This document shows positions 20,524 to 46,451 of a DNA stretch of 64,000 nt, piece after piece (positions within the stretch are counted from its first letter, which is position 1; each line of letters starts with the position of its first letter). Origin of the DNA: Dyella japonica A8 (GTDB lineage Bacteria; Pseudomonadota; Gammaproteobacteria; Xanthomonadales; Rhodanobacteraceae). Below the pieces are notes generated by a model that made no database searches, was not told the origin of the DNA, and saw only the letters and a program-made list of their open reading frames with translations. Location of the stretch: the NCBI RefSeq assembly GCF_000725385.1, contig NZ_CP008884.1:4092001-4156000 (forward strand), written 5' to 3'. Both the position numbers and the translations under genes were made by a program.

Positions 20524-20810
20524 AAAGCTTCTCCCGTGAAGTGGGTCCGTAAGCAAGGTAACGCGGGAGCTGGCGCGAGGTCGTACGTCGTTGCGTCCCC
20601 CAGGTTCGGGAGGGTTCAGCAGCTTGGCTGGGGGGTGAATGGTTTCTTGCGCTGTGCTGTCGGTTCATTGCGTACATGGACTCGCCGGTGGCTTCGTGTG
20701 AAGTGCGCGAGTGGGGGTTGGAAAGCTTTCGGCGAATGCTGGAGCGAACATCAGCGCAGCCGATGGCTCAGAGGGTGAGGCGCAGGATGCGGCGAATAAC
20801 CGGAGCGCTC
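20524..20810. other. Gene-poor spacer upstream of the YXWGXW gene
   Basis: This stretch of 287 bases separates the YXWGXW start from the tRNA-linked repeat array. It must hold the promoter of the minus-strand gene. No convincing ORF, RNA gene or inverted repeat was seen. Confidence 0.6.
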
Positions 20811-21431
20811 GTCCACACTTCTCTCCGGCAGATACGCAGAGCCCCCCCCGCTAGGGGGCTTCGTTGAAGGGCGCGATGACGTGAAGGTTGGGATTGTTCG
20901 GCCCATCCGTGGGCCTCACCCTTCCGCGCCGCGCGCTCCAGGGCCAGCCTGCGGCTGTCCAAATTTGTTCCAGACAAATTTGTCGAACCAGAGGGTTCGT
21001 CCACACCTCTCTCTCCGCCAGATACGCAAAAAGCCCCACTAGGGGGCTTCGTTGGAGGGCGCGATGACGTGAAGGTTGGGATTGTTCGGCCCATCCGTGG
21101 GCCTCACCCTTCCGCGCTGCGTGCTCCAGGGCCAGCCTGCGGCTGTCCAAATTTGTTCCAGACAAATTTGTCGAACCAGAGGGTTCGTCAACTACCTCTC
21201 TCTCCGCAGATACGAGAGCCCCACTAGGGGGCTTCGTTGAAGGCCGCGTTTGCGTGGAGGTTGGGATTGTTCGGCCCATCCGTGGGCCTCACCCTTCCGC
21301 GCTGCGCGCTCCAGGGCCAGCCTGCGGCTGTCCAAATTTGTTCCAGACAAATTTGTCGAACCAGAGGGTTCGTCCACACCTCTCTCTCCGCCAGATACGC
21401 AAAAAGCCCCACTAGGGGCTTTTTGCGTATC
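20811..21431. repeat. Tandem 188-bp repeats carrying an inverted tRNA-Ser 3' end
   Basis: Units start with GTCCACAC-like sequence at 20811, 20999, 21187 and (partial) 21372, with spacings of 188, 188 and 185 bp. Each plus-strand unit contains a tRNA-like end (GAGGGTTCG then CTCTCTCCGCCAGATACG), an AAGCCCC/GGGGCTT hairpin, a GGCCCA/TGGGCC hairpin, and a CAAATTTGT...ACAAATTTG dyad. Copies 1 and 2 share most bases; copy 3 has a changed segment after the hairpin (GGCCGCGTTTGCGTGG). Short minus-strand frames through the array change phase from copy to copy, so they are not genes. Confidence 0.93.
21401..21424 (-). terminator. Intrinsic terminator of tRNA-Ser
   Basis: On the minus strand the stem AAAAAGCCCC / GGGGCTTTTT with a TAGT loop starts 8 bases after the tRNA CCA and ends in five T. 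It is the core of a longer, perfect 32-bp stem (21379-21446) that includes the tRNA 3' end. Confidence 0.85.
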
Positions 21432-21524
21432 TGGCGGAGAGAGAGGGATTCGAACCCTCGATAAGGCTTTTGACCCTATACTCCCTTAGCAGGGGAGCCC
21501 CTTCGGCCTCTCGGGCATCTCTCC
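21432..21524 (-). tRNA. serV: tRNA-Ser (GCU anticodon)
   Basis: The minus strand reads a 7-bp acceptor stem (GGAGAGA / TCTCTCC), discriminator G, and an encoded CCA. The anticodon arm is CTCCC-CTGCTAA-GGGAG with anticodon GCT (reads AGC/AGU). A long variable arm (about 21 nt, TATAGGGTC...) and the T arm GAGGGTTCGAATCCCTC identify a class II serine tRNA. It sits just downstream of csrA, as in many gammaproteobacteria. The 93-base length includes CCA. Confidence 0.97.
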
Positions 21525-21555
21525 GTTTTTCGACCGCATCTCTGCGGAGCCGGCA

Positions 21556-21584
21556 AGGATACTGACCGGCGCGCTCAAGGTAAA
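21556..21584 (-). promoter_or_regulatory. Sigma-70 promoter of tRNA-Ser
   Basis: On the minus strand TTTACC (21579-21584) and TATCCT (21556-21561) are separated by 17 bases and lie about 32 bases before the mature tRNA 5' end. Each hexamer matches 4 of 6 consensus bases. Confidence 0.55.
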
Positions 21585-21598
21585 GCTTTTATCGCCTG

Positions 21599-21805
21599 TC
21601 AGTGTTCGCCAGTGCCGCCGGAGGCGTTGCCATCCGGCTCGTGCTCGTTCTTGATCCGTTGATAGATCTCTTCGCGATGCACGGCAACGTTCTTGGGTGC
21701 GTTAATACCAATGCGCACCTGGTTGCCCTTGACGCCCAGAACGGTAACGGTCACCTCGTCACCGATCATCAAGGTTTCACCGACCCTGCGGGTCAGAATC
21801 AACAT
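21599..21805 (-). CDS. csrA: Carbon storage regulator CsrA/RsmA
   Basis: This 68-aa RNA-binding protein has the canonical sequence start [16 protein letters not shown] and the RNA-contact residues around [12 protein letters not shown]. It binds GGA motifs in mRNA leaders and controls translation and stability. GGAG lies nine bases before ATG 21805; the frame is open upstream but the family start is unambiguous. The order alaS-csrA-tRNA-Ser is conserved in gammaproteobacteria. Confidence 0.97.
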
Positions 21806-22073
21806 GTTTGCCACTCCATGAATACTTTGGTCACAGGCCCACAGACGGTTATGCCTCACCCCTGAGCTTCACCGCCTGAAACAGTTCGACGATTGTACCG
21901 CCGAAGGCCCTACCGCCTTCCCCGGTTTCGATCCACAGACGAGGCATCCCCTGTGATGCCATGTCGGCGACACCGTCGCAACCATCGGTGCCGGCAGTGT
22001 TTGGATACTAGCCGAGCGTCCGATGGCAGTGCAATGCGTAAACGCCAACGGAGTATGGTCAGTTGACCCCCAG

Positions 22074-46421: not shown

Positions 46422-46451
46422 GCGCTTTGGCGCTTTGGCGCTTTGGCGCTT
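46422..46451. repeat. Short tandem repeat (9-bp unit)
   Basis: The unit GCGCTTTGG is repeated a little over three times in direct order between the AEC permease and the degenerate class-A REP. It may vary in copy number. Confidence 0.8.

Follow-up and report, generated by a model that had tools for sequence, protein, structure and literature searches.

The gene for tRNA-Ser(GCU) in Dyella japonica A8 is adjoined by a tandem array in whose units the 3' end of the tRNA recurs in inverted form, which raises the question of what this array is, how it arose, and whether it has a role in the cell. The window analyzed here is a stretch of 64,000 nucleotides (NZ_CP008884.1, positions 4,092,001 to 4,156,000), and all coordinates below refer to it. 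On the minus strand, csrA is followed by tRNA-Ser(GCU), a terminator-like hairpin, and three units of about 188 bp. The features of the locus are as follows, R2 being a covariance model of the unit's core:

21599..21859, minus strand: csrA open reading frame (CsrA domain, residues 19-70; Pfam PF02599, E 3.2e-26), co-directional with tRNA-Ser(GCU) and 74 bp from it
21432..21524, minus strand: intact tRNA-Ser(GCU) gene (ARAGORN; Rfam RF00005, 53.7 bits)
21379..21410 and 21415..21446, no strand: perfect inverted repeat with 32-bp arms (tRNA 3' end and terminator-like hairpin versus mirror), spacer ACTA
21187..21371, minus strand: repeat unit 1, closest to the tRNA, 185 bp (sequence and TRF)
20999..21186, minus strand: repeat unit 2, 188 bp (sequence and TRF)
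20811..20998, minus strand: repeat unit 3, 188 bp (sequence and TRF)
21268..21356, minus strand: core of unit 1, with hairpins P1-P4, GGA in the P1 and P4 loops, and GGTTCG/AATCCC flanks (R2, 88.7 bits, E 4.4e-17)
21083..21171, minus strand: core of unit 2 (R2, 88.7 bits)
20895..20983, minus strand: core of unit 3 (R2, 88.7 bits)
21364..21400, plus strand: mirror (inverted copy) of the tRNA-Ser 3' end, closest to the tRNA, exact
21179..21214, plus strand: second mirror of the tRNA-Ser 3' end, with small indels
20991..21027, plus strand: third mirror of the tRNA-Ser 3' end, exact
20803..20837, plus strand: degraded mirror closing the array on the side away from the tRNA
20736..20798, plus strand: possible decayed core copy in the opposite orientation (R2, 20.0 bits, E 0.016; marginal)

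The tandem 188-bp repeats reported in a first-pass annotation are real: TRF describes an array with a period of 188, 3.3 copies, and 91% matches at 20798-21418, comprising the three units and a degraded edge. Read in the sense of the tRNA, a unit consists of a terminator-like hairpin, the mirror, GGTTCGA, a core of about 90 nt, AATCCC, and a stretch that is now unlike the tRNA; the core is thereby framed by two T-arm halves. The mirror, which reads GAGGGTTCG and CTCTCTCCGCCAGATACG on the plus strand, had been described as present in every unit, and this stands for the two exact copies, while the other two carry indels or are degraded. The AAGCCCC/GGGGCTT hairpin assigned to each unit is present as a copy of the terminator-like hairpin adjoining the tRNA, and the CAAATTTG dyad proved to open a series of four hairpins in each unit, of which the remaining three had been missed. 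A sigma-70 promoter and terminator scan scored none in the array, neither a plus-strand promoter nor a promoter of its own; the terminator-like hairpin was presumably left unscored because its T run lies inside the stem. In an Rfam scan of the window, tRNA was the sole model at cut-off, with no match to the CsrB/RsmZ families or to RtT (RF00391), and a relaxed search of 20700-21600 returned, besides tRNA, seven matches that each fell under their own family's cut-off. A module like that at 20736-20798 (GCCATCGGCTGCGCCGATGTTCGCTCC...) stands before second-line cores at six other loci (L011, L014, L016, L019, L022, and L023). Elsewhere in the window, at 46422-46451, TRF also detected a perfect 8-bp tandem repeat of GCGCTTTG (x3.8).

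Folding of five single cores yields four hairpins inside a closing helix, with z from -3.35 to -4.76. P1 is formed by CAAATTTGT/ACAAATTTG, P2 by CAGCC/GGCTG, P3 by CCC..GGG with an added GCGC arm in the family of the window, and P4 by GGCCCA/TGGGCC. This structure was set by hand from the single folds; the RNAalifold consensus of the first alignment misplaced P1. It is 97.1% paired across 33 cores. In a set of 53 diverse cores, 95.3% of cells pair and two-sided changes occur at 19 of the 24 pairs, amounting to 201 cells against 43.9 in shuffles (score 0.476 vs 0.139), while controls with slid partners score 0.073 or less and their pairing drops to 28-49%. The R2 model covers this core only, with no T-arm flanks and no named E. 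coli sequence in its build. Two further ideas about the structure were rejected. A paucity of G-U pairs might have marked DNA-level hairpins, but the cores contain 1.6% (43/2656) compared to 2.3% in 133 tRNA acceptor stems; and a closing stem between the mirror and its own 3' flank finds no preference for self (-18.55 kcal/mol) over swapped partners (-18.39 kcal/mol) among 22 chosen units of the genus. The loops of P1 and P4 are characterized by GGA, found in 118 and 113 of 126 aligned matches, respectively, compared to 8 for P2 and 14 for P3, with the closing pair included and with a bias in these counts that comes from the GGA in the R2 consensus itself. All three window units have CUGGA in P1 and ACGGAU in P4, giving six GGA loops in the array.

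A comparison of this core with the tRNA-linked repeats (TLRs) of E. coli accounts for the array, which the first-pass annotation had placed outside the standard feature types. TLRs were first described in 1978, number 22 at ten E. coli loci, and are presented by Stenum et al. (2021, PMC8144298) as having no known function before RrA, RrB, and RrF; that paper also cites Egan and Landy 1978, Rudd 1999, and the withdrawn rtT phenotype. The R2 model matches rrA, rrB, and rrF at 59.8 bits each (E 8.4e-12). RrA, RrB, and RrF, located between T1 and T2 of rrnA, rrnB, and rrnD, possess a homologous four-hairpin core with GGA in P1 and P4, and like the window array they stand behind the terminator of a stable-RNA operon; next to them the 3' end of 5S is present a second time, and in rrnB the core precedes that second copy. 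They differ in that their host is 5S rRNA with one copy per locus, whereas the host in the window is a tRNA followed by tandem units, and only the window has the added P3 arm and the inverted copy of the tRNA end. The E. coli tyrT rtT array resembles the window in its 178-bp tandem units 3' of a tRNA, with a core between GGTTCG and ATCC of the 3' copy, and in its mirror TGAGAA replaces the T-loop letters. Its core is only weakly alike (15-21 bits), with R2 scoring the three rtT units at 16.0-20.6 bits, and by eye the P1 and P4 loops lack GGA; the Rfam RtT model recognizes the tyrT stretches alone among six loci, four of which stretches score 133-138. In E. coli csrA-serV-argVYZQ, two of three TLR-like spacers reach 12.6 and 13.2 bits with R2 (E 0.04-0.05), and P2, P3, and a tRNA 3' copy can be made out by eye in all three.

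The window array lies directly downstream of its tRNA in the same direction, its core is homologous to those of named TLRs (rrA/rrB/rrF), and its three cores fall within the one to five copies found per TLR locus. It does not have the 18-19 bp direct copy of the gene 3' end that a TLR carries, since only AATCCC is kept after the core; longer direct copies of the tRNA end are seen at other loci (L027, L092, and L206). With a homologous core and this direct copy missing, the array is a TLR-type variant rather than a strict TLR. Like REP/BIME, ERIC, and other dispersed palindromic repeats, the element is short, structured, dispersed, and mostly non-coding; unlike REP/BIME and ERIC, it is tied to tRNA genes, has the ends CAAA...CA, and lacks the GTAG foot that marks REP. 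The literature searched reports TLRs from Enterobacteriales only and yielded nothing on the letters of the element, on T-loop palindromes, or on tRNA repeats in Xanthomonas. The occurrence of rrB-like sequences is given as at least 31 species, all Enterobacteriales, in the published E. coli account (PMC8144298), and RsmU of Xanthomonas is described as derived from an mRNA 3' end, not from a tRNA (PMC7694677). As far as this literature shows, the range beyond Enterobacteriales, the covarying core model, the anatomy of T-loop insertion, and the dispersed copies are new.

In its own genome the core, used as query, has seven copies at E <1e-10. Three are those of the window array, and the other four are at tRNA-Gln(CTG), tRNA-Ser(CGA), tRNA-Ser(TGA), and one protein gene (L009); in the last, at approximately 1445-1616, the inserted copy has the gene start on either side. 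R2 raises the total to 19 matches, the twelve further ones measuring 69 nt in eleven cases and 76 nt in one. Eight of these twelve short relatives were fetched (e.g., L271-L275), with no tRNA in the fetched stretch. These eight lie between CTTTTCTTT-type flanks, some of them in inverted pairs. Counting the own genome in each case, the whole unit as a DNA query matched 37 of 61 genomes, the R1 model matched 91 of 117 family genomes and 110 of 274 class genomes, and R2 matched 19 of 38 genomes of the class and 51 of 199 of the phylum. Thirty of these 51 lie outside the class, 22 of them in a single family (f200). When named genomes were scanned for an exact pattern, 49 stretches turned up, of which 37 belong to Dyella or Rhodanobacter by title, and the consensus core had no match in the phage and plasmid collections. 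At the tRNA-Ser(GCU) locus itself, 15 of 20 genomes of the genus, each from its own species, carry the array with one to three cores, some partial, a variation in copy number between species; five have no listed array, and the R2 core was absent from the locus in all three of those checked.

Linkage to tRNA genes was assessed with the 104 R2 matches found outside the own genome among the 38 class genomes, all fetched with flanks, some shortened by contig ends. ARAGORN places a tRNA or tmRNA within 500 bp of 50 of these copies and none there for the other 54; in comparison, about 1.7% of the window lies within 500 bp of a tRNA. The earlier proposal of a tRNA-linked repeat thus holds, with recurrence at other tRNA genes and usually a fit to the local tRNA, but the stronger form, in which the unit always flanks a tRNA, applies to those 50 copies and not to the 54. 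The tRNA strand is shared by 42 of the 50. In 33 stretches with one tRNA each, the tRNA is Ser in 16, Arg in seven (two on the opposite strand), Gln in four, Val in one, and Met or Phe in three and two, respectively, with all five of these on the opposite strand. Genes for tRNA-Ser make up about a tenth of the tRNA set and are overrepresented among the tRNA-near stretches (16/33). Three loci have tmRNA as host (L032, L094, and L098), with flanks resembling the tmRNA T-arm. Both halves of a T-arm directly abut the core in 32 of the 104 copies, including four with no tRNA within 500 bp. Among T-loop copies located 3' of a tRNA (n = 30), the local tRNA was the best match to the direct flank in 16 and to the mirror in 21, with mean scores for local versus other tRNAs of 13.7 vs 7.6 and 14.2 vs 9.4, respectively; most of the 14 direct-flank misses were either ties among Ser isoacceptors or copies that have decayed. 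One stretch (L154) holds nine copies in 6.5 kb of chromosome.

The letters preceding the element end in GA (NGA) in 85 of 109 distinct cases and read CGA in 56. Within tRNAs, the element follows TTCGA of the T-loop or, as in L145, GGTCGA of the D-loop; L145 has three cores alternating with four copies of the 5' part of the tRNA. At these other loci the element has exact ends and mostly comes after GA, so that at a tRNA it occupies an extra, partial copy and leaves the working tRNA whole. From A58 to the final A of a tRNA is 19 nt, and this distance from the T-loop insertion point to CCA may explain the 18-19 bp identity of TLRs. Judged from sequence, the copies elsewhere show that the element is or was mobile.

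This mobility is central to the best-surviving rival explanation, which we consider unlikely though well worth weighing: the array would be a selfish, non-autonomous mobile DNA element with no cellular role, its hairpins recognized as single-stranded DNA by a recombinase or transposase, the GGA loops of the end hairpins serving as recognition marks and T-loops being merely favored targets. Such an element is suggested by an exact insertion in L165, in which an 83-bp copy splits a phage-integrase-family gene (PF00589, E 5e-11) whose rejoined flanks carry the reading frame on (31 protein letters), as well as by head-to-tail, unit-length tandems (CA|CAAA) in L021, L139, and L159, a copy nested in P1 of another (L091), copies following REP-like sequences (L147-L153), and the preference for GA. 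It must nevertheless accommodate the strong and co-oriented placement at tRNAs and, in E. coli, the placement in rrn operons with measured CsrA binding (PMC8144298). The 54 copies free of a tRNA within 500 bp are also consistent with a selfish element, as is the retention of both GGA loops in 53 of 62 copies away from tRNAs versus 48 of 56 near them (8 of the 126 unclassified), which indicates that tRNA linkage does not explain the conservation of the loops. A non-systematic look found no autonomous version or enzyme, and the lack of phage or plasmid matches likewise speaks against it. The loci concerned show some additional features. L159, from one class genome, has a run of four or more head-to-tail copies (673-1039) spaced 72 bp apart. 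In L091 (60-1802), copies are found where a recombinase gene (PF07508/PF00239) ends, the nested ones inside a 226-aa open reading frame that stays open through both, and L095 looks alike. The seven copies of L147-L153, all in one genome, stand right after REP-like sequences of types GTAGGAGC and GTAGGAGCGCACCCTGTGCGCGA.

The mirror bears on a second rival, passive debris, in which replication would have switched templates at two palindromes, that of the terminator and that of the T-loop, producing mirrors that were then tandemly amplified. The mirror does span two palindromes, the number of cores varies, and within the genus the mirror and 3' flank of the unit do not covary, all of which would fit debris. 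At the tRNA-Ser(GCU) locus the mirror tracks the core: it exceeds the 95% shuffle level in 14 of 15 genus arrays (the exception being G009), and it is absent from 11 of 12 kin without a core (scores 5-7; shuffled 95% level 8-9), indicating that mirror and core mostly travel together (14/15 vs 1/12). G030 (L285) has, downstream of its tRNA-Ser(GCU), an exact mirror (27/28), an intact TTCGAA, and a much reduced core, possibly an early or decayed stage. Debris does not account for a core that covaries and recurs in many families at many tRNAs, nor for the exact insertions, and with covariation against it we regard it as very improbable. Least credible of all, to the point of near dismissal, is the plus-strand antisense RNA against tRNA-Ser(GCU) suggested in the first-pass annotation and by the 32 nt of that strand that repeat the tRNA 3' end and its downstream sequence in inverted form, as the antisense or tRNA-mimic part is not what is conserved (the structured core recurs and the mirror does not, being imperfect at many other loci where the core is kept), tRNA-near cores are mostly on the tRNA strand, and no plus-strand promoter was scored.

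We lean, if modestly, toward the array being a TLR locus in which a mobile structured element has been kept at a stable-RNA gene as a predicted CsrA-binding RNA. RNA polymerase that runs past the tRNA would yield a small structured RNA, as has been described for rrnB; the P1 and P4 GGA loops, six in the array, would bind CsrA dimers; and as the tRNA, and perhaps csrA as well, is transcribed, free CsrA would fall accordingly. In the E. coli account, RrA, RrB, and RrF arise by read-through transcription and bind CsrA and Hfq, RrB binding CsrA in vitro with a KD of ~100 nM and a shift that is abolished in the tested range when three GGA are changed; the same source predicts that the 19 TLRs in tRNA operons do not bind CsrA, and describes modest effects of both rrA/B/F deletion and rrB overexpression (PMC8144298). 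CsrB/CsrC and RsmY/RsmZ likewise consist of GGA-loop hairpins, but the window array differs from CsrB in having six loop sites rather than ~18, no scored promoter of its own, and no Rfam match. From its loops, the array is predicted, with somewhat more confidence than doubt, to bind CsrA; a measurable regulatory effect is possible but doubtful.

The presence of CsrA was rejected as a predictor of the element, as no association was seen among the 38 class genomes (both present in 18, copy only in one, CsrA only in 16, and neither in three); G163 has an element copy and no CsrA match. In seven of the 18 genomes with both (G000, G160, G162, G165, G185, G193, and G195), a copy lies no more than 0.75 kb downstream of csrA on the same strand, and E. 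coli has a similar csrA-serV-arg operon. This link to csrA may reflect nothing beyond the synteny of csrA with tRNA-Ser(GCU) and the frequency of the element at tRNA-Ser.

Taken together, the covariance model indicates that the TLR core is shared across many families and is not confined to Enterobacteriales, and it opens two points to testing: what moves the element, and whether the Csr system receives input from stable-RNA operons in general. More speculatively, and as a possibility that we put forward only tentatively, TLRs may represent one phylum-wide mobile element, inserting after GA and above all in tRNA T-loops, that was retained time and again as a CsrA titrator transcribed from stable-RNA promoters and that, following csrA and tRNA-Ser, forms a growth-rate feedback loop. 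If true, csrA and a CsrA sponge would become co-directional neighbors, with feedback tied to growth rate.
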